A program made the position numbers and the translations under genes. 64,000 nt of DNA from Aeromonas enteropelogenes (GTDB lineage: Bacteria > Pseudomonadota > Gammaproteobacteria > Enterobacterales > Aeromonadaceae), in NCBI RefSeq assembly GCF_000819845.1, contig NZ_CDCG01000046.1, positions 1 to 64,000 on the forward strand, given 5' to 3'. Positions 1 through 27,743 of the stretch are shown piece by piece. The notes beneath the pieces are model-generated. The model saw nothing but the letters and a program-made list of their open reading frames with translations. It was not told the origin of the DNA and did not search any database. Numbering within the stretch: position 1 is the stretch's first letter; each line of letters starts with the position of its first letter.

Positions 1-1205
1 TCCCCCGCCAGACCCACCCTGGCCAACAGCCGCTGCCCGAGCCAGCGCAGCATGCGCCCGTAGGGGGGCTGCTCCGGATTGTCCCAGCGCCCCGCCAGCG
101 CCGCCGACCAGAGCTCGCTCACCTTCTCCACATAACGCCGGACAGTGAACAGCTGGTTAGCCCGCGTCTGCCCTGCCCGCCCCAACCGGCTGCGCAGGGC
201 GGGATCGCCCAATCGCTGCCAATGAGCCGCCATCTGGCGCCAGTCGCCGGGGTCGGCCAGAAGGCCCGTCACCGTGTGTTCCACTACCTCGGGGATCCCC
301 CCCACCCGATAGGCGCTGACCGGCAGCCCCAGCATACCCGCCTCGGCCAGGGTCAACCCGAACACCTCCTCGCGGGCGCCGGAAACCAGCAGATCCACCC
401 CGCCGCGCAGGATGGCGGCGCTGTCAGGCCGCTCCCCGAGAAAGTGCACCCGCCCGGCCACTCCCAGCTCAGCGGCCAATGCAGTTAGCGCTGCCAGCTC
501 GGGGCCGCTGCCAATCACCAGCAGCTGTGCCTCCTCCCCCTGTCGGGTCAGCTCGGCCAGGGAGCGGATCAGCAGATCCACCCCCTTGCGCTTGATCAGC
601 GACCCTATGGTGGCCAGGATCAGCTCCCCCGGCGGCAAATCCAGCATGCCGAGCACGGGCCAGTGGCGCCCCTCGCTCAGGCGCGCGCTGTCCACCCCGT
701 TGGCGATATGAACGAGACGGCCATGCTCGCAGCCATCCTCCCGCCAGGGGGCCAGCACCGGCTGGCTCACCCCGATCAGCACGTTGGCCTGATGCACCCG
801 CAGGCTGAACCTGTCTCTGGGCTGATAACGGGCGTGCAGATGGCACACCAGCGGCACCTTCATCTTGCGGCACACCCCGGCCAGCCACTGGCAGGGGGCG
901 GCGCTGTTGGCGTGCACCAGAGTGATGCCATGCTCCTCGATCAGCGCCTGCGCCCGCTGGCACAGGGCCCGATGGGCGGCCAGATCGAAGCGGGGGGCCT
1001 GCCACCCCAGCAGCAGAGAGAAGGGCTCAACCACCGCCTTCACCCCGAGCAGGGCGGCCTCCTCTGCCAACTGCTGGCTGTTGCACCAGAGCAGGGGGGC
1101 AAAGCGGCTGCGATCCAGGTGGGCCAGCAGATCCAGCAGGCAGCGCTCGCTGCCGCGGATCCAGTTCTCGCCGTAATGCACCAGCAAAATGGGGGTTGCG
1201 CTCAT
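1..1205 (-). CDS. Glycosyltransferase, GT4/GT1 type (3' end outside window)
   Basis: The reading frame opens with ATG at 1205 and stays open to the left edge, so the C-terminus is missing (at least 401 codons seen). It begins MSATPILLVHYGENWIRG and has the two-domain GT-B layout. The C-terminal half carries an E-x7-E motif (EEVFGLTLAEAG) typical of retaining GT4 enzymes that bind the nucleotide sugar. The start overlaps the stop of the upstream ligase gene by ATGA, so it is the third gene of a leftward flippase-ligase-transferase operon. It probably adds one sugar to the lipid-linked EPS repeat unit at the inner membrane face. The sugar specificity cannot be read from sequence. Confidence 0.85.
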   Translation of the reverse strand, partial: MSATPILLVHYGENWIRGSERCLLDLLAHLDRSRFAPLLWCNSQQLAEEAALLGVKAVVEPFSLLLGWQAPRFDLAAHRALCQRAQALIEEHGITLVHANSAAPCQWLAGVCRKMKVPLVCHLHARYQPRDRFSLRVHQANVLIGVSQPVLAPWREDGCEHGRLVHIANGVDSARLSEGRHWPVLGMLDLPPGELILATIGSLIKRKGVDLLIRSLAELTRQGEEAQLLVIGSGPELAALTALAAELGVAGRVHFLGERPDSAAILRGGVDLLVSGAREEVFGLTLAEAGMLGLPVSAYRVGGIPEVVEHTVTGLLADPGDWRQMAAHWQRLGDPALRSRLGRAGQTRANQLFTVRRYVEKVSELWSAALAGRWDNPEQPPYGRMLRWLGQRLLARVGLAG

Positions 1206-2590
1206 GACTCAGCTCCCTTGTTTGGTTTATCCCGCTCCGCCCCGGCCATGGCCATTTCCGTTTCTCTGGCCTGCCGGACATATTTGATGGCTGCCACCGC
1301 CAGCGACAGCTCCAGATAGATGGGCCAGGTAAAGCCCTGGGTCAGGAAGGATCCCGAGATGACGAACCCCACCATGCTCGCCATCACCCCCTGCATGGCA
1401 GTCACTACTGCAGGAGGCATGCCATCCAGTGAGCAGCGCCAGGTCCGGTAGAGGGTGACCACCACCATGCCGATGAAGATGAACAGCCCCACGAAGCCGG
1501 TTTCCGCCAGCACCCCGAACCAGGTGGAGTGCACCGCGTGGTTGAGGCCGTCCCAGTGGGGGCTGAAGAAGAAGTAGTTGTAGTAGAAGTTGGAGAGCCC
1601 CACCCCGATGAGCGGATGGGCCAGCGCCATGCCCCAGGCGGCCTGCCAGGCATAAAGCCGCCCCATGGCCGAGGCGTCCACCCCGCTCTCTGCCGCCCCG
1701 CCGGAGGCCCGATCGCTTATCCCGGCGGCGGCAAAGAGCACCAGCAGCGCCAGCGAGCCGCACAGGATCAACACGGTTTTCGACTGCACCCGCTGCCAGG
1801 CAAAAATGCCGCTCACCGCGCAGATCCCGAGCAGACCGCCGCGACTCTGGGTGGCGATGATGGCGGCAGCCACCAGCACGAACCCCACCGCCCCCAGGAT
1901 GCGCCCTCCCAGGCCATTACCCCGGTTGAGCAGCAGACTCAGGGAGAAGCCGGCGGGAAACAGCAGCACCAGCGCCAGATCGTTGGGATCCCCCAGCACC
2001 GAACCGAGCTCGCGCCCTATGGTGACCCGGGTCCCCTCCACCAGCCCGATGCCGCTGCTCTTGTTGTAGAGCGCCACCAGGGCCACCATGCAGCCGGCCA
2101 CCACGAAGGCCCGCACCGCCAGGGCGAAGTCCTCTGGCCTGCGCACCAGCCAGGCGGTGGCCAGCGTCATCAGGTAGATCTTGCTGTAGCTGCCGGTCCA
2201 GGTGGCGATCGCCTCCCCCCGGTTGCTGGCAAACAGCACCCCGATGGAGACGACGATGAAAAAAGCGGTCAACCAGCTGAGGGGCTGGCTCCAGTAGGGC
2301 TTGATGCGACCGGTCAGCAGGGTGTGCCAAACCAGGGCGCCGATCGCCGCCAGCGAGAAGAGCAGCGGGATCTTGAGGGGATAGAGCTGGGGAAACACCT
2401 CGTGCAGGCGGAAAAACGAGAAGGTGACGAACCCCAGCACCATCAGAAACGGCCAGCGCAGGGCAAACCAGATGGCGGGAATGGCCAGCCCCAGCACCGG
2501 TAGCAGCAGCGGGTGCGGCAGCCGCCACCAGAGTCCGGCCACCACCAGGGTGGCAGTCAGCCCCCAGAGGGCGTGGCTCAGGCGGCCCAT
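1202..2590 (-). CDS. O-antigen ligase / EPS polymerase family membrane protein (Wzy_C, SypL-like)
   Basis: A 462-residue polytopic membrane protein with about a dozen hydrophobic segments. Near the C-terminus it has the Wzy_C signature: HPLIGVGLSNFYYN, then HAVHSTWFGVLAETG. Such proteins polymerise or ligate undecaprenyl-linked polysaccharide in the periplasm. The ATG at 2590 was chosen because it has a purine-rich ribosome site (GGGCAGGG) and overlaps the flippase 3' end by 13 bases. The longer open frame upstream lies inside the flippase gene. Placement next to a Wzx-type flippase supports a role in EPS chain assembly, equivalent to SypL of Vibrio fischeri. Ligase versus polymerase cannot be decided here. 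Confidence 0.83.
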   Translation of the reverse strand: MGRLSHALWGLTATLVVAGLWWRLPHPLLLPVLGLAIPAIWFALRWPFLMVLGFVTFSFFRLHEVFPQLYPLKIPLLFSLAAIGALVWHTLLTGRIKPYWSQPLSWLTAFFIVVSIGVLFASNRGEAIATWTGSYSKIYLMTLATAWLVRRPEDFALAVRAFVVAGCMVALVALYNKSSGIGLVEGTRVTIGRELGSVLGDPNDLALVLLFPAGFSLSLLLNRGNGLGGRILGAVGFVLVAAAIIATQSRGGLLGICAVSGIFAWQRVQSKTVLILCGSLALLVLFAAAGISDRASGGAAESGVDASAMGRLYAWQAAWGMALAHPLIGVGLSNFYYNYFFFSPHWDGLNHAVHSTWFGVLAETGFVGLFIFIGMVVVTLYRTWRCSLDGMPPAVVTAMQGVMASMVGFVISGSFLTQGFTWPIYLELSLAVAAIKYVRQARETEMAMAGAERDKPNKGAES

Positions 2591-3897
2591 TGCCCTGCCC
2601 ACCACTGGCCGAGCCACATCATGGCAAGGGAGCCGGCACCGCTCGCCCACAGCGCCGAGAGGCGGTAAGGCAATGGCAGCAACCGCTGGCTCACCAGATA
2701 GAAGGCGAGCGCCCGCACCAGATAGACCAGCAGCAGGGTCCAGATCACCCCGGCCACCCCGAAACGCGGAATGGCGAGCAAAAAGCCAAGGACGCCGAGC
2801 AAACTGCATCCCAGATTGATAACCATCTGGGCCTTGCTCTCCTCCCCGCTGAAGCAGCCGACATTGAGCAGGTCAGAGACGTTGCGCACCGCCATCCCCA
2901 GCACCAGCAGCGGGATATAGGCGATGGCCCCGTGATAGCTCTCCGGGGTGAGCCAGCGAATGAGCAGGGGGGCGGTGAGCCCCACCACCCCGGCGGTGGC
3001 AAACCCCAGCACGGAGCCCAGCACGCTGTAGTGGGCGTTGAGGCGCAGGCCGTCCGGCTCCTTGAGCAGCATGAAGCGGCGCGGATACCACCAGAGGGCG
3101 AAGGGTTGCAGCAAGAGTCCCACCGCCAGCGCCAGCTTGCCCGCCACCGCATAGTAGGCCAGCAGGGCCTCGCCGACGTGTTCGGCCAGCAGCCAGCGAT
3201 CCAGCCCGCTCAGGGCAAAGCCCGCCAGCCCGCTCACCACCAGCGGCATGCCGTAGCGCAGCAGGGGGCGATAGTATTGCCAGTCAAAGCGAATGCCACC
3301 ATCGCGCCACTGCCAGAGGCTCAGCAGCAGCGCCAATCCGACACAGGTAAGGGTGCCGGAGGCGAGCACTCCGCTCACTCCCCAGCCAAGCCAGAGCCAC
3401 CAGGCGGTCAGCAGGGACTGGATCACCGCCTTGCCGGCGGTGGCCACGAAGAAGAGGCGGGCCTGATTGCGCATCCGCAGCCAGGCCAGCGGCACCCCGA
3501 TCACCCCCTCGAACGGCAAGGCGCTGAGCACCCAACGCACATCGGCAAGGCGGGTTTCGGTTGGCAGCAGCCGCTGCACCAGGGGCGCCAGCCACCAGAG
3601 CAGCACCAGGCTGGCCAGGGCGATGATCCAGACCAGGCCGAACACCCGCGCCACCACCTGCTTACGCTCGCCTTCATCTGCCGCCATCCCGGCGAAGCGA
3701 TAGAGGGCGTCCACCAGCCCGAACCCCAGGATGAGGGAGCCCAGGTTGATGATGGTCAAGAGCACCTCCAGCTGGCCATACTCCCGGGGCGCCAGCAGGT
3801 GGGTCAGCACCGGCAGCATCAGCAGGGAGATCCCCTTCATCAGCAAGAGGCCGGCGGCGTAATAGATCATGGCTATCTGGTTTACTCCGAGTCTCAT
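2578..3897 (-). CDS. Polysaccharide flippase, MATE/Wzx-type (SypK-like)
   Basis: A 439-residue membrane protein starting MRLGVNQIAMIYYAAGLLLM, with roughly 12-14 hydrophobic segments and the PST/MATE-like motif LTHLLAPREYGQLEVL near the N-terminus. Members translocate undecaprenyl-diphosphate-linked repeat units across the inner membrane. The ATG at 3897 has a GGGAGG ribosome site just upstream; the extra 26 codons of open frame before it look non-genuine. It is the first gene of the leftward operon with the ligase and a glycosyltransferase. A strong sigma-54-like promoter lies at 3950-3965. By position it corresponds to SypK of the Vibrio fischeri syp locus. Confidence 0.84.
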   Translation of the reverse strand: MRLGVNQIAMIYYAAGLLLMKGISLLMLPVLTHLLAPREYGQLEVLLTIINLGSLILGFGLVDALYRFAGMAADEGERKQVVARVFGLVWIIALASLVLLWWLAPLVQRLLPTETRLADVRWVLSALPFEGVIGVPLAWLRMRNQARLFFVATAGKAVIQSLLTAWWLWLGWGVSGVLASGTLTCVGLALLLSLWQWRDGGIRFDWQYYRPLLRYGMPLVVSGLAGFALSGLDRWLLAEHVGEALLAYYAVAGKLALAVGLLLQPFALWWYPRRFMLLKEPDGLRLNAHYSVLGSVLGFATAGVVGLTAPLLIRWLTPESYHGAIAYIPLLVLGMAVRNVSDLLNVGCFSGEESKAQMVINLGCSLLGVLGFLLAIPRFGVAGVIWTLLLVYLVRALAFYLVSQRLLPLPYRLSALWASGAGSLAMMWLGQWWAGQWAA

Positions 3898-4216: not shown

Positions 4217-4993
4217 ATGAACAGCATCAGCCTGTACCGGATGAAAACCTGGGCCAAGCAGGGAGAGACGCCGCTGGCCCGCCTGCTGTGGCGCCTCGCC
4301 AAGGGGGCCCGCAGCTGGAGCTGTCCGCTCATCCCGCCCCTGCACGGCCTGCTCTATCGCCTCTATCGGCTGACAAGCCAGACTCTCGCGACCCTGGCCC
4401 GCACCCTCTGGTGGACGCCGCTGTTCCAGTCTCGCCTGCGCGCCCCCGCCCCCCGCCTCTATCTCTATGGCGGCATCCCCTTTATCAGCGGCCCCGTGTC
4501 GATCGACATCGGGACGGATTGTCGCCTCAGCGCCGCCATGACCATCAGCGGCCGCCCCTCGAGCAAGGGGCCCGCTCTCAGGATTGGCAACAACGTCGGC
4601 ATCGGCTGGCAGACCACCATCGCCGTGGGCAGCAAAGTTGTGCTCGGCGATAACGTACGCATCGCCGGGCGTGCCTTCCTCGCGGGCTATCCTGGCCACC
4701 CGCTGGATGCCCAGGAGCGGGCCCGGGGACTGCCGGATCGGGACGAGCAGGTCGGCGACATCGTGCTCGAAAACGATGTCTGGCTCGGCACCGGCGCCAT
4801 GGTGATGGCGGGGGTGACCATAGGAGCCGGTACCGTGGTCGCCGCCGGCAGTATCGTGACCCACAGCCTGCCTGCCGGGGTGCTGGCCGCCGGGGTGCCG
4901 GCCCGGGTGCTGCGCCCCCTCGATGCACAAGATTGCCGCGACGCGCTGGCAGAGAGTGCCGCCAGCCGCCCGAGTGAGGAGAAACAGCCATGA
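4217..4993 (+). CDS. Hexapeptide-repeat acyltransferase, WcaF/CysE-type (SypM-like)
   Basis: A 258-residue protein whose second half is a left-handed beta-helix built from hexapeptide repeats (for example the GNNVGIGWQ and GAGTVVAAGS stretches near residues 127 and 205). Such enzymes transfer acetyl groups from acetyl-CoA to sugars, here probably onto the EPS repeat unit in the cytoplasm. The ATG at 4217 has GGGAG ten bases upstream. The stop overlaps the next glycosyltransferase start by ATGA. It is first in a rightward operon behind a sigma-54-like promoter. By family and neighbours it corresponds to SypM. Confidence 0.82.
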   Translation: MNSISLYRMKTWAKQGETPLARLLWRLAKGARSWSCPLIPPLHGLLYRLYRLTSQTLATLARTLWWTPLFQSRLRAPAPRLYLYGGIPFISGPVSIDIGTDCRLSAAMTISGRPSSKGPALRIGNNVGIGWQTTIAVGSKVVLGDNVRIAGRAFLAGYPGHPLDAQERARGLPDRDEQVGDIVLENDVWLGTGAMVMAGVTIGAGTVVAAGSIVTHSLPAGVLAAGVPARVLRPLDAQDCRDALAESAASRPSEEKQP

Positions 4994-6189
4994 AACCGTC
5001 GAGCGCACAGCCCCAACTGGTGGTACTGGGGGAAGACTGGGGTCAGCACCCCTCCAGCACCCAGCACCTGATCAAGCGCCTGCTGCCGGACTATCGGGTG
5101 CTCTGGGTCAACTCCATCGGCCTGCGCCGCCCCCGCCTCAATGTGCGAGATCTCGGCCGCCTAGGGCGCAAGCTGGGGGCCGTGCTGCGCCGCCCGGACA
5201 AAGGCGAGGTGCAGTCAGCCGCCATCCAGAGCGGGCCGACGCCCCAGGTGATGCCGCCGCTGGCGCTGCCCCTGCCCGGCAGCCGACTGGCGGGGCGGAT
5301 CAACGGCCACTGGCTGGCGGCCCAGATCCGCCGCCATCTGCCCGAGCTCGACAGGCCCCTGCTCTGGATCTCCTTGCCAAGCGCCGTGGATCTGGTGGGC
5401 AAGCTCGGTGAGCGGGCGGTGATCTACTACTGCGGCGACGACTTCTCGGCCCTGGCGGGGGTAGATCACGCCGCCATTGCCCGCTGCGAGGCCAGGCTGG
5501 TAGAAAAAGCGGACCTTATCCTGGCCGCCAGTCCGGCGCTGGCCAGCCGCTTTCCCCCCCACAAGACCCGGCTGCTGAGCCACGGGGTGGATCTCGGCCT
5601 CTTTATGCCACCCCAACCCAGGCCGGCGGATCTGCCGAGCGGGCGCCCCATCACCGGTTTTTACGGCAGCCTGAGCGACTGGATAGACGTTCCCCTGTTG
5701 GCGGAGACCGCTCGCGCCCTGCCCCACTGGGATCTGGTGCTGATAGGGCCCAGGCAGACTGACCTGAGCCCGCTGGCCGGACTGCCCAATGTGCACCTGC
5801 TCGGCCCCAGACCTCACCACACCCTGGCCGCCTACGCCCAACACTGGCAAGTGAGCCTGCTCCCCTTCGTCGACAATGCCCAGATCAGGGCCTGCAATCC
5901 GTTGAAGCTGCGCGAGTATCTGGCGACTGGCCGGCCCGTCGTCAGCACCGACTTTCCGGCGCTGGACGGCTATCGGGAGCTGGTACACCTGCCCCGCCCG
6001 GGCGACACCCTGGCCCAGGCCATCCAGCGCGCCGCCCTCGACGCCCCCGGGCAGGACTGGTTTCAGCGCTACGAGTGGGAGGCGCTGACCCGGCACGAGG
6101 GAAAAGCGCAGCGCCAGCAGGCGGTGGCGCAGCAGAGCTGGGATCACAGGGCCGATGAGCTGAAAAACTGGTTGGCGGGGCTGCTCTGA
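4990..6189 (+). CDS. Glycosyltransferase, GT-B fold (SypN-like)
   Basis: A 399-residue cytosolic transferase. The N-terminal half includes LLWISLPSAVDLVGKLGERAVIYY-type sequence in separate strands. The C-terminal half has GFYGSLSDWIDVPLL and CNPLKLREYLATGRPVVSTD, where the P-x-K-xx-E-Y pattern is typical of nucleotide-sugar binding in these EPS enzymes. It is translationally coupled on both sides: ATGA with the acetyltransferase and TGATG with the downstream DUF4091 gene. It likely adds one sugar of the EPS repeat unit. Substrate is unknown. Confidence 0.83.
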   Translation: MKPSSAQPQLVVLGEDWGQHPSSTQHLIKRLLPDYRVLWVNSIGLRRPRLNVRDLGRLGRKLGAVLRRPDKGEVQSAAIQSGPTPQVMPPLALPLPGSRLAGRINGHWLAAQIRRHLPELDRPLLWISLPSAVDLVGKLGERAVIYYCGDDFSALAGVDHAAIARCEARLVEKADLILAASPALASRFPPHKTRLLSHGVDLGLFMPPQPRPADLPSGRPITGFYGSLSDWIDVPLLAETARALPHWDLVLIGPRQTDLSPLAGLPNVHLLGPRPHHTLAAYAQHWQVSLLPFVDNAQIRACNPLKLREYLATGRPVVSTDFPALDGYRELVHLPRPGDTLAQAIQRAALDAPGQDWFQRYEWEALTRHEGKAQRQQAVAQQSWDHRADELKNWLAGLL

Positions 6190-8732
6190 TGATCTGGCTG
6201 GCGGCGCGTTTGCACAGAGCATGCTGGCTGCAGGTACTCGGCCTGATAACTCTCTGCCTGATAACAGGGAGCCCGGTGAGGGCGGCGAGCCGCCTTGATG
6301 GCCCCACCCCCTTGCCACTGAGCGGCGAGCAGACGCCCCAGCGGCTCCCCTTCGAACGCCTGCCCTGGCCCATCGGGGCGGATGACGAACTGGTGATCGA
6401 GGGTCACAATCCCGCGGCAGGCCCCCAGACCCTGATCCTGCGGGTCGATGACGCCGCCTCGGTCAACTACCGCAGCCGGGTCAATCTGGAGCGGATCATC
6501 CCCCCGGGTCCCTTCACCCTGCGCTTTTCGTTAAGCGACTGGCGCACCGCCCAGCCCAGGGCCCTGGCCCTCGACCAGCTCACCAAGCTCTATCTCTTTA
6601 TGGCTGACGGGGCGACGCCGCTCACCCTGACACGCTGGTACTGGTCCCCCGGGCTGACCCTGCCCACCGGCACCATAGCCCTCGACCTGGGGGCGAGCGA
6701 CTCGCCCCGCTTCACCGGTTTCGAGACCCTGGCACCGGGGGATCCGCGTCTGCTGGGCCACCCCAGCCCCATATTGCGCCCCTCCGGCGATGCGCTGATC
6801 CGCGACGGGCTGCGCAACCTCGACGGCGTCAGGCTGGAGGTTCCCAAGGGGCGCTACCAGCTCACCCTCTGGCTCGACGATCCGGGCGAGTGGGAGTACC
6901 TGCCCCACCCCCTCGAGCGCAGCGTGTTGATCGATGGCGAGCCGGTCTGGGCCGAGCGGTTGCAGCCGGGCGAGTGGCTGGCCCAGCGCTATCTCGCCGG
7001 CCAGCAGCAGGAGGCGCTGCCCAATCCCGACCCCTGGCAGCTGTTTGGTGCCCGCCAGGGGGGGCCGGTCAGCCTGGTGCTCGAGCACCCGGGCGGCCCG
7101 CTCACCCTCACCCTGGGGGGCAATTCGCCGGATGCGAAATTCCTCGCCGGCCTGCTGCTTGCTCCCTATCCGGCGGCGGACAAGCAGGCTGATGCCAAGG
7201 CTAACCCGCTGGCCGAAGCCACCCGGCGGGTGCTGGCCAAGCAGCGTCAGCTCTTTACGGAGAAGTGGGCCCTGGCTCCCTATTCGCTGCCAGAATCCCC
7301 CGCTCGCCTCACCCTGACCCCCATCGCGCCGGGGCAGCCGACCTTGAGTGCCAGGGCCAGCCCGGCCCCCCCCGCCACTCCCGTACTGGCCGCCCAAGGC
7401 AGCCAGCTGCTGCTGGAGTTTGTCATCGAGACGCCCGAGGATGACGCCGCCCCCCTGCTGGTGATCCAGCCGCCGGCGGCCAACGGCGTCACCCTGCCGC
7501 TGACCCCCTACCACGGCCAGTGGCATCTGGTGCGCCCCCAGGCGAGCGGCACCCTGCTGCTCCCCTCGGATCAGGAGCTGGTGGAGGGAGTGGCGGGGCT
7601 CACCCTCAAACGCCAAGTGCCGAGGCGCCTGGTGCTGCATATCCCCATTTCGCGAGATGCGCCGGCAGGGCGCTATCAGGGCAATATCCAGCTGCTCAGC
7701 CACCAGCAGCTGGTGCAGCTCCCGTTGGCCATCGAGGTGCAGCCCCTGACCCTGCCCGCCGCCAGCAAGCCGGTCGGCATCTACCTCGACACGCCCCCCT
7801 ACCTTGGCTGGTTCGGCCAGGGCCCGGATCTGGCCAGCGCCCAGCTGGCCGCCAGTCGCTGCGATCTGGCGCGGCTTGCCGGGCTTGGGATAAGTGGCGT
7901 GGCCCCCGCCCTGCCCCAGGATGAGGCCGGGATGCGCACCACCCAGGAGGAGGCCATCGGCCTTGGTTTTCACATGCCGCTGCTGGCCTACGCTTCGCTT
8001 AAGCGCTGGGGCAGCGACACCAACAGCCGGCTCGATGCCTGGCAGCAGCGCCAGGCGGCCTTTCGCGCCCAGGGACTGCCCCCCCTGGCCTGGAGCCTGT
8101 TTGACGAGCCGGATCTCGGCGCCCTGCCCGCCATCCTGGCCATGGCCCGCGAGATGAAACAGCGGGATCCTGCCGTGGTGCGGGCCGGTCACTTCAACCA
8201 TCCCGCCCAGGCGCCCTTGCTTGCCGAGGTGGAGATAGCCCTGGTCAACGCAGGCTTTGGCGCCGACAAGGCCGATGTGGAACGGGTCAGGGCCGCCGGG
8301 GCTGCCCCCTGGTTTTACAACCTCGGCACCCCGCGCGCCGCCGGCTTCTACCTCTGGCAGAGCGGGGCCGAGGGTTACCTGCAGTGGCACGGGCGCATGC
8401 CCACCGCCCTGCCCTACGACCCCACCGACGGGCGCGAGAGCGATTTTCTGCTGCTGGGCCCGCAGGCCTGCGAGGCCCATCGCCTCTCCTACGATCTGCT
8501 GCTGCTGCAACAGGGCATCGAGGATCTGCGCTGGCTCACCTGGCTCGAGCAGGCGGCGCGCCAACAGGTGGATGCAGCCCTGCTGCTGCAGCGGCTGCGC
8601 GAGGCGGTGCCCACCCGCTGGCAGCAGGCCGAAGCGCTCCCCACCAGCCGCTGGGCCAGCTTTCGCGGCGAGATTGAACAACTGGCCAAGCGCTTGAAAA
8701 CATTGCAAACTGGAGCCAATTCATCCCCCTGA
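6189..8732 (+). CDS. Exported DUF4091-type glycoside-hydrolase-like protein
   Basis: An 847-residue protein with a signal peptide (cut probably after SPVRA, about residue 34) and a long beta-rich N-terminal half. A C-terminal barrel-like region resembles DUF4091. It contains SLFDEPD (acidic pair D639/E640), then APWFYNLGTPRAAGFYLWQ, and ends with the family-typical LLLQQGIEDLRWLTWL helix. DUF4091 domains lie in a glycosidase-like clan. Inside an EPS operon the likely role is periplasmic or extracellular trimming or degradation of the polysaccharide, but activity is inferred. The start overlaps the previous stop (TGATG). I do not know a syp counterpart for this gene. Confidence 0.72.
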   Translation: MIWLAARLHRACWLQVLGLITLCLITGSPVRAASRLDGPTPLPLSGEQTPQRLPFERLPWPIGADDELVIEGHNPAAGPQTLILRVDDAASVNYRSRVNLERIIPPGPFTLRFSLSDWRTAQPRALALDQLTKLYLFMADGATPLTLTRWYWSPGLTLPTGTIALDLGASDSPRFTGFETLAPGDPRLLGHPSPILRPSGDALIRDGLRNLDGVRLEVPKGRYQLTLWLDDPGEWEYLPHPLERSVLIDGEPVWAERLQPGEWLAQRYLAGQQQEALPNPDPWQLFGARQGGPVSLVLEHPGGPLTLTLGGNSPDAKFLAGLLLAPYPAADKQADAKANPLAEATRRVLAKQRQLFTEKWALAPYSLPESPARLTLTPIAPGQPTLSARASPAPPATPVLAAQGSQLLLEFVIETPEDDAAPLLVIQPPAANGVTLPLTPYHGQWHLVRPQASGTLLLPSDQELVEGVAGLTLKRQVPRRLVLHIPISRDAPAGRYQGNIQLLSHQQLVQLPLAIEVQPLTLPAASKPVGIYLDTPPYLGWFGQGPDLASAQLAASRCDLARLAGLGISGVAPALPQDEAGMRTTQEEAIGLGFHMPLLAYASLKRWGSDTNSRLDAWQQRQAAFRAQGLPPLAWSLFDEPDLGALPAILAMAREMKQRDPAVVRAGHFNHPAQAPLLAEVEIALVNAGFGADKADVERVRAAGAAPWFYNLGTPRAAGFYLWQSGAEGYLQWHGRMPTALPYDPTDGRESDFLLLGPQACEAHRLSYDLLLLQQGIEDLRWLTWLEQAARQQVDAALLLQRLREAVPTRWQQAEALPTSRWASFRGEIEQLAKRLKTLQTGANSSP

Positions 8733-18866: not shown

Positions 18867-19868
18867 TCAGGCGGTATAAACCGCCAGGATATCGCTCACC
18901 CTGTGGTTGACGCTGTAGCCCCGGGCGATGGTCTGGCGGGCCGCCCGGCTCATGGCCCCGCGCACCCGCTCGTCACTGCGCAGCCAGTAATTGACGATAT
19001 CCGCCATGTCGTGCACCTGGCCAGGTGCCACCAGCCAGCCGTTGGACTTGTTGTCGATAAGGGAGACCAGCCCCCCTACCGCGAAAGTGCAGACCGGGAT
19101 GCCGTGAGCCATGGCCTCAAGGGCCACCAGGGGCAAGCCTTCGAAGCGGGAGGTGATGCAGAGCAGATCGATCTGCTGCCACTCATCGGCCATCTTGCGA
19201 AAGCCGTGAAACGCCACCCTGTCCCCGTATTGCATGCTGAGATCCCCCATGAGTGGGCCTTCGCCATAGAGGTGAAAATCCCCCCCGGGGCAGAAGGCAG
19301 CAAGCTGACAGAACGCCTGCGGCCCCTTCTCGGGAGAGAGACGGCCGACGAAGGCGATGCGGTTGCCCGCCACCGCCGCGGGGGCGGCGGGCAGGGGCAC
19401 AAAGTTGCTGATGACGGTGCTCGGCACAGGCAATCTGCGAGCGATGGGCTCGCTCACTGCAATGCACTTCGCAAAGCGCGCCGTGATCCGGTCGAGCCAG
19501 CTGTAGAACTTCAGCCACCCCTCCCCCTCGTCACCGCTATGAAAGGTCGAGACCACCGGCTTGCCGCTGCACCAGGCGGTGAGGCGCCCCAGGATCCCGG
19601 CCTTGTAGCCGTGGGTGTGCAGCAGCACGAAGCCGGGCTGGCGGGCCAGCACTTGCACAAAGTCCCGGCTGTTGCGACAGACCCGGTATGGCAATCCTTG
19701 TTGCCTTAGCAGGGCGACAAAGGGAGTCATGCCGTGATCGGCCACCAGCACTATGGTGACCTCCAGCCCCCTTGCCAGCAGATCGCTGGCGAGGTGGGTG
19801 ATGTGAACCTCGATCCCGCCGACCTGGCGGGCATCGATGGCGAGCCAGACCTGATGTGTGGGCAACAT
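18867..19868 (-). CDS. Glycosyltransferase, GT4-type (SypH-like position)
   Basis: A 333-residue GT-B transferase. FVGRLSPEKGPQAF and the C-terminal SRFEGLPLVALEAMAHGIPV (E-x7-E) are visible and typical of GT4 donor binding. ATG 19868 is favoured because GGAGG lies six bases upstream; a TTG two codons earlier would sit right against it. It lies 82 bases after the kinase-phosphatase gene and is last of the leftward STAS operon. This is the position that the first glycosyltransferase follows in syp-type loci, but one-to-one orthology with SypH is not established. Confidence 0.84.
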   Translation of the reverse strand: MLPTHQVWLAIDARQVGGIEVHITHLASDLLARGLEVTIVLVADHGMTPFVALLRQQGLPYRVCRNSRDFVQVLARQPGFVLLHTHGYKAGILGRLTAWCSGKPVVSTFHSGDEGEGWLKFYSWLDRITARFAKCIAVSEPIARRLPVPSTVISNFVPLPAAPAAVAGNRIAFVGRLSPEKGPQAFCQLAAFCPGGDFHLYGEGPLMGDLSMQYGDRVAFHGFRKMADEWQQIDLLCITSRFEGLPLVALEAMAHGIPVCTFAVGGLVSLIDNKSNGWLVAPGQVHDMADIVNYWLRSDERVRGAMSRAARQTIARGYSVNHRVSDILAVYTA

Positions 19869-19950: not shown

Positions 19951-21438
19951 TCAGTCGGCGGGAAAGGCCACCAGCAACAGGGTCATGTCGTCCGGAGCGC
20001 TGTCGGCCCTGTCATCAAACCAGTTGGCGATGCGCTGGGCCAGCCGGGCAAGGTCGGGCTCGGGGGCAAGACAGATCTGCTGCAATTGCGCCTCCCACAA
20101 CTGGCGCTCGGCACTATCCCGGCTCTCCAGCAGGCCATCGGTCCAGAACAGCAGGCGCTCACCCGGTTGGAGCAGATGCTCGCAGGTTTCGAATTGGGGA
20201 TCCGGTCGCAGGCCGGGCAAGGGCCCGGTGACGCCGAGCTGGCGCATACCGTCCGCCCCGATCAGCCAGGGCGCCGGATGCCCCGCGCTGGCCCAGCGGA
20301 TCCATCCGCCCTCCCCCAGCTCGATGCAGAGGGTGGTGAGCAGGGTCGCCCCCAGCAGAGGGTCGCTGTGGACGGCGGTGGAGAGGGTGGTCAGCAGGCT
20401 GGCAGGCGATCGCTGCTCGCTCTGGGCGGTCAGCAGGCCGCGCAGATACCCCGCGTAGGCATGGGCGAAGAACTTGGCCTCGGCGTCGTGCCCCATCACA
20501 TCCCCCAGCCAGAGCACCCGATCCCTGGCCAGCAGAAAATCCCCCCCGCCCACGGCGGCGGCACGGGTCTGCAACGCCAGCTGATAGCCGTGCAACTGGT
20601 CGGCCGGCAGCAGGGGGCGCAGGGCCGAGGTCATCCGCTGATCCAGCTGATCCCCCCACTGGGCCTTGAGCTGGGCCGAGCGTTGCAGCACCCGGGAGAC
20701 CGCCAGCTGCAGCGCCTGCTTGGTGATGGGCTTGACCAGAAAATCATCGATGCCGAGGGCGCCGGCCCGGCTCTGGGTCCATTGATCCTGATGGCCGGTC
20801 AGGAAGATAAAGGGCACGCCGCGCATTTTGGGATCCTTCATCAGCTGCTGGCGCAGGGCGAAGCCGTCGATCCCCTCCATCTCGATATCGGAAAGCACCA
20901 GGGCCGGCGGCTGGCGGCCGAGCGCCTGCAGGGCGGCGCAGGGGTCGGCATAGCTCTCGACCCGATAGTTGTCGTGCAGATAGCCGGTGAGCAGGGTACG
21001 CATCACCTTGTCATCGTCGATCACCGCCACCACGGGCGCCTGCCTGACACAGCCGCGGGCCCGCAGCATCACCCGGTTGCGATCCCCCTCCCGGCTGAAG
21101 TTCACCTCATCAAACAGCTGGTGCACCAGCGCCAGACCATAGCCCCCCTCCTGCGGCTCGTCCGGCAGGGGGGTCGCCGCCAGTGCAGGCTGGGGCCCGC
21201 CATCGTCATCAAGCAGCAGGCTCAGACCGGACTCGTCCTGCTGCAGGGTGAGCCAGAGGTGGCTCGCCGGCGGCGAGCCATGGCGCACAATATTGGTGGC
21301 CAGCTCGCTGAAACAGAGCAGCCAGTTGGCCTGCTCACGGGAAGGCACCTGAAACAGCGCCAACCCCTGGGCCAGGCGGGCGCGCAGGTCGCGCACCGAC
21401 TGCAGGGTGGCGGGGGCAGATCGCAGCCACTCTTCCAT
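19951..21438 (-). CDS. Kinase-receiver-PP2C partner-switch regulator (SypE-like)
   Basis: A 495-residue cytosolic protein with three domains. Residues 1-130 are an RsbW-like HATPase (N-box SELATNIVRH with Glu45/Asn49, glycine boxes near 77 and 98). Residues 135-250 are a response-regulator receiver (acidic cluster at 141-143, phospho-acceptor Asp184, Lys236). Residues 275-495 are a PP2C/SpoIIE phosphatase (GGGD at 297-300, GDVMGHD at 312-318, PDDMT near 482). This is the unusual architecture of Vibrio fischeri SypE, which phosphorylates or dephosphorylates the STAS protein SypA according to receiver state. Key residues of both catalytic domains appear intact. ATG 21438 has GAAGGAG. It lies three genes downstream of the STAS gene. 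Confidence 0.88.
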   Translation of the reverse strand: MEEWLRSAPATLQSVRDLRARLAQGLALFQVPSREQANWLLCFSELATNIVRHGSPPASHLWLTLQQDESGLSLLLDDDGGPQPALAATPLPDEPQEGGYGLALVHQLFDEVNFSREGDRNRVMLRARGCVRQAPVVAVIDDDKVMRTLLTGYLHDNYRVESYADPCAALQALGRQPPALVLSDIEMEGIDGFALRQQLMKDPKMRGVPFIFLTGHQDQWTQSRAGALGIDDFLVKPITKQALQLAVSRVLQRSAQLKAQWGDQLDQRMTSALRPLLPADQLHGYQLALQTRAAAVGGGDFLLARDRVLWLGDVMGHDAEAKFFAHAYAGYLRGLLTAQSEQRSPASLLTTLSTAVHSDPLLGATLLTTLCIELGEGGWIRWASAGHPAPWLIGADGMRQLGVTGPLPGLRPDPQFETCEHLLQPGERLLFWTDGLLESRDSAERQLWEAQLQQICLAPEPDLARLAQRIANWFDDRADSAPDDMTLLLVAFPAD

Positions 21439-21448: not shown

Positions 21449-22117
21449 TCAGATCCGGAAATTGAGCAGGGCGCTGCGCCGGCACCAGCGCTTGAGCCAC
21501 TCGGTCAACCGGTTGCTCGGCAGCCGGTTGAGTTCGCGCAGGATCTCGCTGGCCAGCCCCGGATTGACTCTGTCGTTGAACACGGCTCCCAGCAGGTTGG
21601 CCTCGGCCCGGGTCAGCTTCTCCACCGCGCTTTGCACCATGGTGGTCGGCGTCACCCCGGCCAGCACCACCAGCAGAGCGCCCTCACAGGCGGCGCACAC
21701 CAGATCCGCCGGGATATTGCCCCGGTTGAGGGCATTGAGGGGGGAGGTATCGAACAGCACCACATCATAGTGTTCGAGCCAGCGCACCAGTAGCTGGCGC
21801 AGGGTCTCCTTGTTGCGAAAGGCCATCAGATCCTTGCCCGGTGCCGGCAGCACCGCCAGGGCCTGACCCTGGCTCAGGGGTTCGGGCACATCGTTCGGGC
21901 CCCAGGCCTGCGCGGCGGGCCGGCCCGGGTGGTAGAGATTGAGATCCACCAGCAGGGTCTTGAGGCCGTCCGCCTCGGCGCGCCTGGCCAGCGCCTCGCA
22001 GATGGTGCTGACCCCCTCGCCCCCCTCGGCCGAGGTCACCGCCAGGGAGCGGATCCCCCGCGCCAGGGTCGAGGCGTAGAGCGACTCCAGTTCCAGGTAC
22101 TGGATTGGGATGCTCAT
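21449..22117 (-). CDS. CpsD/BY-kinase-like ATPase with altered Walker A (SypD-like)
   Basis: A 222-residue ParA/BY-kinase-fold protein. The Walker A region reads SAEGGEGVSTI (29-39): the usual GEGKST lysine is valine (Val36). A Walker A'-like LLVDLN (Asp58) and a Walker B LFDTSP (Asp123) are present. The C-terminus has no tyrosine cluster for autophosphorylation. In EPS loci such ATPases work with the chain-length protein to control polymerisation and export. The altered P-loop and missing tyrosines suggest a degenerate or regulatory version rather than an active tyrosine kinase. It begins one base after the exporter gene stop. It corresponds to SypD by context. Confidence 0.78.
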   Translation of the reverse strand: MSIPIQYLELESLYASTLARGIRSLAVTSAEGGEGVSTICEALARRAEADGLKTLLVDLNLYHPGRPAAQAWGPNDVPEPLSQGQALAVLPAPGKDLMAFRNKETLRQLLVRWLEHYDVVLFDTSPLNALNRGNIPADLVCAACEGALLVVLAGVTPTTMVQSAVEKLTRAEANLLGAVFNDRVNPGLASEILRELNRLPSNRLTEWLKRWCRRSALLNFRI

Positions 22118-22118
22118 C

Positions 22119-24224
22119 TCACAGGGTTCCTATCAGGGCGACGACCGAGATGGTGGTGAGAATGTCCCGCATCCCGTCCATGAAGATGGCCCAGTTGCTG
22201 CTCTTGCTGTCGGGGATAAAGACGGTGTCCCCTGCCCTGAGCACCGGCAACTGGCTGAAATCGGGCTCCTTGGCAAAGCCGTCGAGATCGAAGGTGCGCG
22301 CCTGATCCCCCTGCCCGCTGGCCGCCATGTTAATCACCACGATTTTCTTGATGTAGGCCGAACTGGTCGGCCCGCCGGCTTCTGCCAGCAGATCCAGCAA
22401 CGTCATGGAGGAGTTGAAGCGATAGCGCCCCGGCCGGGCGATGGCGCCCAGCACCCGTATGGTGTTCTCCTTGGGCTCGTCGAGCCAGGGGCGGTTCTTC
22501 TCCGGCAGGTAGATGGAGTCCCCCGGCAACACTTTTGGCAAGAGTGTCTCGTCGCCGGTCTCGAAGTAGAGGGCCAGATCCAGCTTGCTCACCCGCGCCG
22601 TGCTGCCGTTGCGATGGGCGATGCGCACGTTGCGCAAATCCGCCGCGGCGGTGGGGCCATCGGCGGCGGAGAGGATGTCGATAAAACCCATCTGATCGTT
22701 GAAGGCGTAGCGGCCGGGGGCACCGACCTGGCCGAAGATGTAGATGGAGCTCTCCGGCGACTGGCGTACCCACTGGGATTTGTTGTCGCTGGGATCGGTA
22801 GGCAGCTCGGGGATCATGATGGTGAAACCGGCGTGAATCTTCGGCAGGCTGCCAAGCGCCCCCCCCTGATGGAGGAACTTGTCGAGATCGAAGAGTGTGG
22901 GCGTCGCCATTCCCCCGTCCGAGGTCAGGATCTGCACCTTAGCGATATCGGCCCGTTCGCTCGGGCCGCCGGCGTGGGCGATGAGATCGAGCAGGGACAT
23001 CTCGTCAGACCATTCATAGCGCCCGGGAATGCGCACCGCCCCCATCACCATCACCGCCCGCCCCGGGGCGACCTTCAGCCAGGACTTTTCGTTGATGTCG
23101 GTCTTCTCGGGGATAAAGATGGCATCCCCCGGCCTTATCTGGGGCAGCGCTTTGTGCATCCCCTCGGTGTAGGCCTGTAGATCGATGGGTTCGACGGTGC
23201 CATCGGTGCGCAGCAAGCGGATCTGGCGGCTCTCGGCATAACGGGTCGGACCGCCGGCGTTGGCCAGGATGTCGAGGAAGGAGTCCCCCTCCCGCCCCTC
23301 ATAGGCGCCGGGTTTGAACACTTCCCCCATGATGTAGATGGTGCGCGCCCCCCGCTTGATCTGCTCCTCATCCTTGGGCACGAAGATGGTGGCGCCGGGA
23401 GCCAGGGTGGGCAGCAGCTTGTTGTTGCCCGAATCCAGATAGGCCTTGAGATCGAACAGCTCGGGGGCATCCCCGTTGATCACCCGGATCCGCTCCACCC
23501 CGGCAAAGCGGGTCACGCCACCGGCCCGCATCAGCAGATCCACGATGGAGTTGCCACTCTTGAAGCTGAAGGCGCCCGGGCTGTTCACCTCGCCAAACAC
23601 CTTGATCGCCTTGCCGGTGTCGCCATCGCCCCCGGCCGCCAAAGTGGCCGCATCGAAATCAATCTGGACGTTGCCGATGAGGGGGGATGCGGGCACGAAC
23701 ACCACATCAAGGGATTGCAGCGGGGGCAGCAGGCTGGCGTCGCCGGTATCGAGATAGCGCTTGTAGTCGAAGCTGGAAACGCGGTCGCCACGGCGCACCT
23801 GCATGTTGTTGAGCTGGGCCCCCGGCACCAGGCCGCCGGCGGCATCGAGCGCCATCTGGATGTTGCCGTCGGGCGCCAGATCATAGCTGCCGGGCTTTTT
23901 CACATACCCCATGACGCTGATGAGCAGGCGTTTTTCCAGGAGCGTGACAGTCAGTTGGGAGAGGTTGTTGTAGACGGGTTTGAGGGCGGTACGGATGATG
24001 GCGTCAGCCTGTGGGAGCGTCTTGCCCCCGACCACCACGTCCCCCACCTCGGGCAGTTTGATCTCCCCCTGCTTGTTGATCTGGAAGGGCTGATCGAACG
24101 CCGCCTCCCCCGGTTGCACTATCGCCAGTCGATCCCCGGGCGCCAGCAGGGTACTGGCCAGCAGAGGGCAGGTAAACAGCAAGAAAACAAGACCAATCAA
24201 TCCTTTGATAGCGCCCCGATTCAT
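22119..24224 (-). CDS. Polysaccharide export protein with six SLBB repeats (SypC/Wza-like)
   Basis: A 701-residue exported protein. It has a signal peptide (about residues 1-23), a Poly_export domain (about 27-105, APGDRLAIVQPGE), then six SLBB-type repeats. Each repeat has a G-x-V/A-xx-PG core, for example VMGYVKKPGSY, VFGEVNSPGAF, IMGEVFKPGAY, VMGAVRIPGRY, IFGQVGAPGRY and VLGAIARPGRY. A hydrophobic tail (DILTTISVVALIGTL) ends the protein. It likely forms the periplasmic and outer-membrane conduit for EPS. Six SLBB domains make it much longer than Wza (about 380 residues). There is no lipobox cysteine at the signal cleavage site. ATG 24224 has AAGGAT upstream. Confidence 0.88.
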   Translation of the reverse strand: MNRGAIKGLIGLVFLLFTCPLLASTLLAPGDRLAIVQPGEAAFDQPFQINKQGEIKLPEVGDVVVGGKTLPQADAIIRTALKPVYNNLSQLTVTLLEKRLLISVMGYVKKPGSYDLAPDGNIQMALDAAGGLVPGAQLNNMQVRRGDRVSSFDYKRYLDTGDASLLPPLQSLDVVFVPASPLIGNVQIDFDAATLAAGGDGDTGKAIKVFGEVNSPGAFSFKSGNSIVDLLMRAGGVTRFAGVERIRVINGDAPELFDLKAYLDSGNNKLLPTLAPGATIFVPKDEEQIKRGARTIYIMGEVFKPGAYEGREGDSFLDILANAGGPTRYAESRQIRLLRTDGTVEPIDLQAYTEGMHKALPQIRPGDAIFIPEKTDINEKSWLKVAPGRAVMVMGAVRIPGRYEWSDEMSLLDLIAHAGGPSERADIAKVQILTSDGGMATPTLFDLDKFLHQGGALGSLPKIHAGFTIMIPELPTDPSDNKSQWVRQSPESSIYIFGQVGAPGRYAFNDQMGFIDILSAADGPTAAADLRNVRIAHRNGSTARVSKLDLALYFETGDETLLPKVLPGDSIYLPEKNRPWLDEPKENTIRVLGAIARPGRYRFNSSMTLLDLLAEAGGPTSSAYIKKIVVINMAASGQGDQARTFDLDGFAKEPDFSQLPVLRAGDTVFIPDSKSSNWAIFMDGMRDILTTISVVALIGTL

Positions 24225-24242: not shown

Positions 24243-24659
24243 CTACGTTTGCCCCCACTGGCGCAAGGGGAGTCCCGACCAGTCGGCGCGACAGCCCTCA
24301 CGGCTTGTCTGCTCCAGCTGCAAACGTACCTGTTGTAATGATTGTGCCAGCATGGCCTGACGCCAGGCGACCTCTGACCAGAGCCGGCCATGCATATCCC
24401 GTACGATGTCAACTCGTTGAGATTGTAGTAGTTTCAGCCCGGCAGGCATACAGTCGCGCAAATGGGCTTGCTGCAGGGTGGCCAGTTGCTGATCGAGCTC
24501 CTGTTGACGCTCATCATACCCTGACCAGAGGCGACGTTCATCCTCGTTCACCGGCAAACGGGTCGGCCTGACCTCGGCCAGCCCGCCATACCCTTGTGGC
24601 GGCCACTGGGTACAACCGGCGAGCAGCAGGCAGGTCAACAACAGGCCCCACCCTTTCAT
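24243..24659 (-). CDS. Small lipoprotein in STAS-exporter operon
   Basis: A 138-residue predicted lipoprotein: MKGWGLLLTCLLLAGC has a clear lipobox (LAGC, Cys16). The mature part is helical, Gln/Arg-rich and carries two more cysteines, in RDCMPAG and REGCRAD. Its start overlaps the STAS gene stop by ATGA, and it sits where sypB lies in Vibrio fischeri, but I see no OmpA-type peptidoglycan-binding domain. It may help assemble or stabilise the export pore. The function is unknown. Confidence 0.7.
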   Translation of the reverse strand: MKGWGLLLTCLLLAGCTQWPPQGYGGLAEVRPTRLPVNEDERRLWSGYDERQQELDQQLATLQQAHLRDCMPAGLKLLQSQRVDIVRDMHGRLWSEVAWRQAMLAQSLQQVRLQLEQTSREGCRADWSGLPLRQWGQT

Positions 24660-25006
24660 GATGCGGCCGCCATCATGCCGCGGGTGCGCATATAGGCTTT
24701 CACGCTATCATGGCAGGGGATCACCTTGTCTATATGTAACATTTCCAGCAGATCATGGGGTTGACCCGGCCCACAAATCAGCGCCAGCTGATGCCCATTC
24801 ATGATCAGTCGCTTGTAGAGAAAGACCAGCGCCCCGATCCCGGACGAATCGATGAAGTGGACATCGCTGATGTCGGCGAGCACATTGCCCCCGTGCAGCG
24901 ACAGTTTCTCGAACAGGGGACGCAGTTCGGTGACGGCCATCGCATCGAGTTCACTCTCCAGAACGACGACCTGGGTATCGTTGATGGTGTAGGTCATGCT
25001 TTCCAT
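24656..25006 (-). CDS. STAS-domain anti-sigma-factor-antagonist-like protein (SypA-like)
   Basis: A 116-residue single STAS domain. The conserved phosphorylation loop reads FIDSSGIGALVFL; by analogy with SpoIIAA Ser58, Ser55 is the likely phospho-site. Such proteins are switched by RsbW-type kinases and PP2C phosphatases, and a fused kinase-phosphatase is encoded three genes downstream. In Vibrio fischeri, unphosphorylated SypA promotes syp-dependent biofilm formation. ATG 25006 has AAGGAG seven bases upstream. It is the first gene of the leftward operon and lies behind a strong sigma-54-like promoter. Its target in this organism cannot be read from sequence. Confidence 0.88.
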   Translation of the reverse strand: MESMTYTINDTQVVVLESELDAMAVTELRPLFEKLSLHGGNVLADISDVHFIDSSGIGALVFLYKRLIMNGHQLALICGPGQPHDLLEMLHIDKVIPCHDSVKAYMRTRGMMAAAS

Positions 25007-25287: not shown

Positions 25288-25353
25288 TTACCCTCTCTGC
25301 CGGTGCTTGCCGTTGCCCTGGTGTCAGCTTCGAACGGATTCATGGAGGAAGGT

Positions 25354-25845
25354 ATGAGATTCACTTTGTATGTGGCACCACTTCTGGTCGCCCTTTGCGG
25401 GGCCGCGCAGGCCACCCCGACTCCCGACAGCGCCCTGCTCAAGGTGGAAGGCGCCATCACCCAACCCAACTACCAGCAGCTGGCCCTGTGGGACAGCGCC
25501 ATGCTGGATCAACTGCCCGAATACGAGATCAAGACCCACACCCCCTGGTATGACGAAGAGAAGACCTTCCGCGGCCCGCGCCTGAGCGATCTGCTGGCCA
25601 AAGTCGGCGCCAGCGGCAAGCAGCTGACCATCACCGCCCTCAATGACTATTCGGTCCAGGTCCCCACCAGCGATGCCAGGCAATACGAGGTGATCCTGGC
25701 CCGCAGCATAGATGGCAAACCGCTCTCGGTGCGTGACAAGGGGCCGCTGTTTCTGATCTATCCGTTCGATCAGTACCCGGAGCTTCGCAACAAGCTCTAT
25801 TACGGCCGGGCCATCTGGCAGATCAGCCAGATCAAGGTGGAGTAA
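25354..25845 (+). CDS. Exported molybdopterin/pterin-binding-like (SUOX-fold) protein
   Basis: A 163-residue periplasmic protein with a signal peptide (MRFTLYVAPLLVALCGAAQA). The mature sequence resembles the small sulfite-oxidase-fold proteins often annotated as putative pterin-binding. Examples are FRGPRLSDLLAKVGA, ITALNDYSVQVP and DKGPLFLIYPFD. No obvious molybdenum-ligating cysteine is visible, so it is more likely a ligand-binding sensor than an enzyme. ATG 25354 has GGAGG upstream. It lies five bases before the hybrid kinase gene, suggesting that it supplies the periplasmic signal to that kinase. This pairing is inferred from context. Confidence 0.72.
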   Translation: MRFTLYVAPLLVALCGAAQATPTPDSALLKVEGAITQPNYQQLALWDSAMLDQLPEYEIKTHTPWYDEEKTFRGPRLSDLLAKVGASGKQLTITALNDYSVQVPTSDARQYEVILARSIDGKPLSVRDKGPLFLIYPFDQYPELRNKLYYGRAIWQISQIKVE

Positions 25846-25849
25846 CCCC

Positions 25850-27673
<1,824 letters not shown>

Positions 27674-27743
27674 GGAAGCGCCACTGCGCCAGGTTCAGCG
27701 CCTGAATGCAGCGGCTCGATGGTTCAGTATTTGGTTCGACAAT

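Follow-up and report, generated by a model that had tools for sequence, protein, structure and literature searches.

The stretch of DNA analysed here (the window, G000:C46:1-64000) comprises 64,000 nucleotides from base 1 of one of the 46 contigs of a 4.47-Mb Aeromonas genome. Its positions 1–27,700 hold what is, by domain content and gene order, a syp/scv-type exopolysaccharide locus of Aeromonas, arranged in divergent units. Loci of this type have been reported from the genus (Liu et al. 2022, PMC8941931); what appears to be new is a three-gene exosortase cassette lying within one. Genes were called from open reading frames (ORFs) and codon-position GC content and annotated with Pfam, NCBIfam and PADLOC (Table 1). 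Syp names were assigned from domain content and profile matches to loci of other genera, not from comparison with the Vibrio fischeri proteins themselves, and follow what we take to be the V. fischeri gene order. Contig C46 begins at window base 1, so the left end of the locus is cut off; in other carriers the missing part holds at least one further glycosyltransferase-like gene. The syp-family gene types that an earlier note on this DNA had placed here in divergent units were borne out by Pfam and NCBIfam matches.

Table 1 Features of the syp/scv-type locus and of the insertion interrupting it
Feature	Position	Strand	Basis or remark
GT4 glycosyltransferase (GT4a), SypI/J place	3–1205	-	PF00534/PF13439; gene cut by contig end
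Wzy/O-antigen-ligase-like protein, SypL counterpart	1202–2590	-	PF04932; TIGR03097 120 bits (cut-off 188)
Wzx flippase, SypK counterpart	2578–3897	-	PF13440/PF01943
Hexapeptide acetyltransferase, SypM counterpart	4217–4993	+	PF00132
GT4 glycosyltransferase, SypN counterpart	4990–6189	+	PF13692; comes after SypM in other loci
Putative secreted GH123-like (DUF4091-like) glycosidase	6189–8732	+	Structure comparison; no Pfam family match
Lipoprotein Lpp1	8744–9271	+	Lipobox by sequence
Cassette: small membrane-anchored protein, EpsI place, directly behind exosortase	9246–9698	-	Position, sequence
Cassette: divergent exosortase	9682–10449	-	Alignment, hhalign
Cassette: DUF1194/VWA protein, signal peptide, PEP-CTERM-like tail; putative single substrate	10598–11446	+	PF06707 E = 1.4e-56
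Low-GC insertion, three ORFs, outside conserved locus	11512–13406	-	GC 41% (12001–14000)
Wzz/GNVR chain-length protein, SypO counterpart	13793–15196	-	PF02706/PF13807; TIGR03007 226 bits (cut-off 279)
GT4 glycosyltransferase, SypP counterpart	15359–16459	+	Profile matches in other loci
GT2 glycosyltransferase, SypQ counterpart	16505–17698	+	Profile matches in other loci
Initiating sugar transferase, SypR counterpart	17695–18330	+	PF02397 E = 2.2e-54
GT4 glycosyltransferase, SypH counterpart	18867–19868	-	Profile matches in other loci
SypE counterpart: RsbW-like kinase, receiver, PP2C	19951–21438	-	PF13581, PF00072, PF07228
CpsD-like ATPase, SypD counterpart	21449–22117	-	TIGR01007 60 bits (cut-off 108)
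SLBB/Poly_export exporter, SypC counterpart	22119–24224	-	PF02563, PF10531, PF22461
Short SypB lipoprotein, without OmpA domain	24243–24659	-	hhalign to SypB
STAS protein, SypA counterpart	24656–25006	-	PF01740; FIDSSGIG serine kept
Periplasmic molybdopterin-binding-domain-like protein, beside kinase	25303–25845	+	PF00174
Hybrid histidine kinase	25850–27673	+	PF00512, PF02518, PF00072

SypA, SypB, SypC, SypD and SypE are present in that order, SypC being the long SLBB exporter, and the set of SypH, K, L, M, N, O, P, Q and R is complete as judged by profile matches to the loci of other genera. In alignment, SypE retains the motifs of all three of its domains (kinase, receiver, PP2C) and SypA the serine of FIDSSGIG; in V. 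fischeri, SypA is phosphorylated by SypE at Ser56 (PMC4517449). The short lipoprotein encoded between SypA and SypC aligned with the N-terminal portion of the SypB proteins of seven loci (hhalign probability 97.9, E = 3.9e-13), an alignment from which two ORFs at the SypB place, in genomes G198 and G157, were omitted. No SypG-type sigma54 regulator was found among the genes called in 1–27,700, the left end being cut off by the contig. The hybrid kinase and its molybdopterin-domain-like neighbour occur at all 14 carrier loci (genomes given below), at the locus edge except in A. diversa, where the order differs; the pair (25303–27673) may provide input to the locus.

Ten loci from other genera that contain SypE were scanned, with added flanks, using profiles built on the Aeromonas genes. 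The order H, GT4a, K, L, M, N, O, P, Q, R, A, B, C, D, E was found in G277, G259 and G148; G313 has the same H-to-E order without a match for L, again with GT4a between H and K, and G128 has it from GT4a on, its stretch beginning inside the locus. Other sets were seen in G315 (A–E, H, L–R), G292 (O–R, A, C–E, H, K–N, with no match for SypB) and G086 (M–R and A–E), a kinase standing between D and E in the last two. SypA–E stand alone in G198 (L171) and G157 (L173), both of genus g6, with no H–R match within 58 kb around. With V. fischeri syp and scv/rbd the window has counterparts of A–E, H, the I/J place and K–R in common, by domains and presumably by order; it differs from V. fischeri syp in its divergent units, in the lack of a SypG-type regulator in the locus, in a SypB without the OmpA domain, and in the additional glycosidase, Lpp1 and exosortase cassette. 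The NCBIfam models for the exporter, chain-length protein and ligase of XrtA systems score on syp proteins generally: the exporter model passes its cut-off in all three other loci scanned (scores summed over several repeats) and reaches 166.5 of 180 in the window. Since such scores are common to syp loci, they indicate no special tie of the window locus to XrtA systems.

These comparisons bear on the nature of the polymer, which might be a surface polysaccharide resembling a capsule or O-antigen instead of a biofilm matrix, in which case the likeness to syp would extend to protein families only. Families of the SypL, SypO and SypC types also serve other exopolysaccharide systems, and the missing SypG, the SypB without OmpA and a syp likeness drawn without direct comparison with V. 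fischeri proteins fit such a polymer as well. Nevertheless, the gene order and the SypA/SypE pair are common to the loci of other genera, and those scv/syp loci that have been tested play a part in biofilm (PMC8941931), which makes a capsule-like polymer the least probable of the alternatives considered here. The unrelated capsule locus against which the earlier note had set its proposal was likewise not upheld, the evidence being the recurrence of the syp order in G277, G259 and G148 and thus indirect, through loci of other genera.

A sister locus lies in Plesiomonas. Among 72,556 plasmid records, the only SypE matches (E ≤ 1e-30, 41% identity) were on two Plesiomonas shigelloides plasmids, NZ_CP062197.1 and NZ_CP027853.1, with the order GT4a-L-K against M-N-glycosidase-Lpp1-O-P-Q-R-A-short B-C-D-E, taken for NZ_CP027853.1 from annotation only. 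The Plesiomonas locus has the same left end as the window and the same short SypB, but runs from O to E in one line and has no cassette: over the 37 kb searched there was no match for the exosortase, the small protein or the VWA protein. It shares the glycosidase (38% identity over 790 columns), Lpp1 (90 bits) and the short SypB (97 bits), and on these matches the three are parts of a syp sub-lineage common to Aeromonas and Plesiomonas. An orthologue of scvB, the OmpA gene, has been described as absent from all scv-positive Aeromonas, whose loci were still classed as scv (PMC8941931). The Aeromonas syp inventory can accordingly be corrected: SypB is present in a shortened form, and the sub-lineage also includes a GH123-like enzyme and a lipoprotein. 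The two Plesiomonas loci (L247, L248) lie on plasmids of 302 and 396 kb and adjoin formate dehydrogenase genes.

The earlier note had counted an exosortase, a VWA protein, a hydrolase-like protein and two lipoproteins as extra to syp. The exosortase and VWA genes are indeed extra; one of the lipoproteins is the short SypB, and Lpp1 and the glycosidase recur in Plesiomonas. Lpp1 also has a weak match just before SypO in G292 (22 bits, E = 5e-6). Pairwise identities of the glycosidase, Lpp1, exosortase and small protein co-vary closely (r 0.94–0.98), those of the four with the syp genes and kinase at r 0.61–0.94 and with the VWA protein at r 0.81–0.87 (G009 left out throughout). Because the glycosidase and Lpp1 occur in Plesiomonas, and Lpp1 in G292, without an exosortase, their membership of an exosortase module was dropped. 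By eye Lpp1 resembles the OmpA half of SypB, and its being that half, relocated, was ruled out (hhalign probability 2.3).

The true addition, as the comparison of sequences has it, is a three-gene cassette between Lpp1 and SypO that encodes a small membrane protein, an exosortase and a VWA protein. The exosortase was found in 14 of the 75 genomes of the family, all within the genus Aeromonas (14 of 37): G003 A. australiensis, G006 A. cavernicola, G008 A. dhakensis, G009 A. diversa, G012 A. finlandensis, G013 A. fluvialis, G021 A. popoffii CIP 105493, G028 A. sobria CECT 4245, G030 (an Aeromonas metagenome-assembled genome), G031 A. taiwanensis, G033 A. veronii CECT 4257, G034, G035 and the window genome, G000. 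PMC8941931 likewise counts A. sobria CECT 4245 and A. popoffii CIP 105493 among scv carriers. SypE orthologues (at least 48% identity) occur in the same 14 genomes and in none of the 23 other Aeromonas genomes, in agreement with the co-conservation of exosortase module and syp-like genes foreseen in the earlier note; the next-best SypE match, at 37%, is in G062, of another genus, and the remaining matches listed are to the receiver domain. Exosortase and SypE share one contig in 11 of the 14 carriers and lie on two in G006, G012 and G030. The VWA protein is present in 13 carriers and in none of the 61 other genomes of the family.

Exosortase and small protein stand together at all 13 other carrier loci, with the VWA gene at 12 of them, and this recurrence in 13 further Aeromonas genomes shows that the block is not a chance assembly. 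Wherever carrier contigs show the stretch, A. diversa included, the cassette lies between Lpp1 and SypO; genes absent at contig ends (for example SypK, L and M in G012, G031 and G033) are uninformative. The ten syp-type loci from other genera gave no match to any of the cassette genes (E ≤ 1e-3). The carrier without a VWA gene is G035, in which that gene and the first ~20 exosortase residues are replaced by other sequence, transposase-like by eye; the stretch at this place (L086:11900-18400) holds transposase-like segments and an EAL-type ORF, both recognised by eye.

The exosortase is divergent. The window protein has no Pfam match (E ≤ 10) and no NCBIfam match of its own, TIGR04178 appearing only at E = 4.4. 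Three of the 11 aligned orthologues match PF09721, whose cut-off of 25.7 bits is passed by those of A. cavernicola G006 (36.8) and A. diversa G009 (26.2) and not reached by those of G000 and A. dhakensis G008, among the four genomes searched. Compared with the canonical exosortases of syp-positive genomes, its profile gave a moderate match (hhalign probability 75.7, E = 2.4e-5, 153 columns). All 11 aligned orthologues have Cys163, Arg210 and His225; the first two are in register with the canonical enzymes, His225 is six residues off, and the canonical Asp-His is not in register. The AlphaFold model shows eight long helices at a mediocre mean pLDDT (predicted local distance difference test) of 71.3, with no Foldseek match at E ≤ 0.001 and no match to sequences of solved structures (E ≤ 1).

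Relatives sought with two short patterns, which detect close relatives only, in 84,980 species genomes came to 11 loci, all in Aeromonas; 369 genomes of the class yielded a single 39-residue match (E = 0.006), and the plasmid records none. Canonical exosortases are present in 9 of the 22 non-Aeromonas genomes with SypE-like matches, always away from the syp locus: 79 kb (G075) and 49 kb (G234) from the syp genes, and otherwise on another contig. In genus g6, genomes G075, G100 and G234 have a canonical, EpsI-fused exosortase elsewhere in the genome. Identification of the small protein behind the Aeromonas exosortase as EpsI (TIGR02914) was rejected for lack of homology to EpsI-fused exosortases (hhalign probability 0.1).

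The scores under family cut-offs and the displaced Asp-His would suit an exosortase homologue that no longer cuts and instead chaperones the VWA protein in the membrane or partners in its anchoring. Against this stand the three invariant residues, the two orthologues above the PF09721 cut-off, and nonsynonymous substitution rates (dN) below synonymous ones (dS) in every cassette-gene pair that could be used (ratio 0.08–0.62; G006 pairs saturated), and a non-cutting role is considered very unlikely.

The VWA protein has the layout of a sorted protein: a signal peptide and a C-terminal tail of motif, membrane helix and basic end, the last weaker in A. diversa and G030. The tail, APIEEIPLAAQLLLGMPLLLAWRYQRR, is almost unchanged across the genus in alignment, and APIEEIPL stands where a Pro-Glu-Pro motif would be, so the tail may work like a PEP-CTERM signal without being filed as one. 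Searches with the tail returned one strong match in each VWA carrier (13 of 13, E ≤ 7.1e-23), and the next-best match (E = 0.016) was alike in a non-carrier and in G000; no convincing further substrate with the same tail was found in the 37 genomes, the generic PEP-CTERM profile not having been run. With one such tail per carrier genome, the exosortase and VWA protein look like a dedicated enzyme–substrate pair. Among the 369 class genomes, 94 have a DUF1194 match at E ≤ 0.001, in many cases a partial one. Five of seven places outside Aeromonas with matches at E ≤ 1e-20 were examined, two very long ORFs being left out. Four of the five proteins end in V/IPEP tails of PEP-CTERM type and the fifth, a 609-residue ORF, in another hydrophobic-basic tail. 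The V/IPEP tails suggest that the VWA protein comes from a family whose members are sorted, its own motif having changed. It has no match among sequences of solved structures (E ≤ 0.01).

For the putative glycosidase, the DUF4091 hydrolase-like label of the earlier note found no counterpart in family assignment. Neither the Pfam DUF4091 nor the GH123 (GH123_cat) model matched any of ten Aeromonas orthologues or the Plesiomonas protein at E ≤ 10; a PF13320 search over 398 genomes gave no match anywhere, its controls also being blank, and comparison with sequences of solved structures gave nothing of use. In Foldseek against the Protein Data Bank (PDB), the 20 best rows were all beta-N-acetylgalactosaminidases or hexosaminidases, ten of them labelled family 123, and represent about seven distinct enzymes. 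A GH123-like fold is thus suggested by Foldseek rows 1–20 and by VIA-align ranks 2–10, from a model that is poor. Compared with GH123 beta-N-acetylgalactosaminidases, the modelled protein has extra N-terminal beta domains and lacks a sequence-family match. Asp639-Glu640, a candidate catalytic pair, is invariant in the ten Aeromonas orthologues and kept in Plesiomonas.

The interpretation towards which we lean, at slightly better than even confidence, is that the locus produces a SYP-type biofilm polysaccharide, which it also modifies and exports, and that the protein-sorting cassette, gained in Aeromonas, serves the same matrix. The activity of the locus would be set by the hybrid kinase, together with the periplasmic protein beside it, and by a SypE–SypA partner switch. 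A lipid-linked repeat would be built by SypR and the glycosyltransferases, flipped by SypK and polymerised or ligated by SypL; SypM would acetylate the polymer, SypO, SypD and SypC would export it, and the GH123-like enzyme may trim a polymer containing N-acetylhexosamine. The VWA/DUF1194 protein would be exported via its signal peptide and retained in the inner membrane by its C-terminal tail. The exosortase, perhaps assisted by the small protein encoded behind it, could then cut or transpeptidate near APIEEIPL with its invariant cysteine, and the released protein, joined to an acceptor, would go towards the outer membrane, where its VWA domain might help to hold matrix or cells together. Substrate processing would in this way be put to the service of a polysaccharide; in Aquincola, a PEP-CTERM protein shifts polysaccharide from the soluble to the bound state (PMC9850573). 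What the sequences show directly is gene content and order, co-inheritance, conserved residues of catalytic type, a single tail per carrier genome and the addition of the cassette relative to Plesiomonas and the ten other loci; the biochemical steps, the protein–polymer link and the acceptor are inferred.

Weighing against this shared-matrix interpretation are the features given above for a capsule-like polymer and a non-cutting exosortase, together with several that favour a self-contained protein-display system, one that shares the island and anchors a VWA adhesin, with the polymer neither acceptor nor partner. In Plesiomonas, where the polymer genes are the same, Lpp1 immediately precedes SypO and the cassette is lacking, which marks the cassette as a separable insert; linkage alone would produce the co-occurrence of exosortase and SypE; and A. 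fluvialis (G013) keeps the cassette without SypA–D. The cassette is nonetheless always found between Lpp1 and SypO where contigs show the stretch and was not found apart from polymer genes among the 37 genomes, and exosortase genes are nearly always located among exopolysaccharide genes (Haft et al. 2006, PMC1569441). Such a separate system is regarded as possible but doubtful. The occurrence of the glycosidase and Lpp1 without an exosortase raised its standing a little and lowered that of the shared-matrix interpretation by as small a step. The same finding also slightly lowered a further reading, which we hold to be unlikely, that the exosortase attaches the VWA protein by a covalent bond to the SYP-type polymer, or to the lipid-linked repeat of that polymer, to give a protein–polysaccharide matrix; the cassette would then be a single-exosortase, single-substrate system whose enzyme represents an exosortase family without a name, specific to Aeromonas within the scope of the searches, and whose tail motif is new.

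The main text of PMC8941931 makes no mention of 'exosortase', 'sortase', 'hydrolase' or 'DUF', and literature searches on exosortases with Aeromonas or with syp yielded no report of such a cassette in a syp-type locus. The cassette resembles the PEP-CTERM/EpsH (XrtA) system in having its exosortase amid exopolysaccharide genes and followed immediately by a small gene (PMC1569441). XrtA has many substrates and a PEP motif, whereas the cassette has one substrate and APIEEIPL; its exosortase falls mostly under the family cut-offs, and its small protein has no detectable homology to EpsI. A single-target rhombosortase likewise adjoins its sole target, though the protease family is unrelated (PMC3237569). 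One enzyme, one substrate and one polymer locus are found together here, with a cassette-free sister locus in Plesiomonas and a carrier, G035, that has lost the substrate, so that the question of the acceptor becomes testable on one protein. To our knowledge, what exosortase substrates are attached to in Gram-negative bacteria is an open question, and many hosts have many substrates; the cassette could serve as a simple, minimal model for it.

The spot between the VWA gene and SypO (window 11446–13793) varies in length from 46 bp in A. diversa (L090) through ~2–2.4 kb in G000, G008, G031, G033 and G034 to 5.5 kb in G003 and 9.1 kb in G013. In the window it is filled by the insertion at 11512–13406, which has no counterpart at the other 13 loci except for one weak 24% match, and of which the ORF at 12834–13406 matches the candidate defence family PDC-S52 (E = 2.2e-24).

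On the right flank, a gene of TauE/SafE type by eye (34731–35497) is present in all 37 Aeromonas genomes. Seven carriers (G000, G003, G008, G013, G028, G033 and G034) have it within ~12 kb of the locus; it is on another contig in six and ~380 kb away in G035. Five closed chromosomes of non-carriers were examined at this site (G010, G014, G015, G023 and G036). Sequence bordering the A. dhakensis locus on its opposite side was met ~4 kb past the flank gene in G014 and ~17 kb past it in G023; there was no left-flank match within the 19.5 kb examined in G010, G015 and G036. The flank-gene pattern indicates that the locus often occupies one chromosomal site, filled otherwise in other species. A tRNA-linked island was rejected, tRNA genes occurring in only 1 of 24 stretches (A. 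sobria).

The window and A. dhakensis are near-identical in the left part of the locus (exosortase 98%, SypO 98%) and not in the right (SypA 77%, short SypB 74%), and the locus is therefore a mosaic. In A. fluvialis (L076:1-13100), SypA–D and the front of SypE are absent within one contig, the exosortase and VWA genes being kept, which looks like real loss from a decaying locus. Beyond the locus in G034 (L067:9400-20000) lie a GGDEF diguanylate cyclase, identified by motif at 9427–10500, a hybrid kinase and two ORFs that weakly match the SypE profile. In the window, the lower-GC (50%) stretch between the locus and the flank gene encodes a TonB-dependent receptor-like protein, recognised by eye, at 31936–34092.

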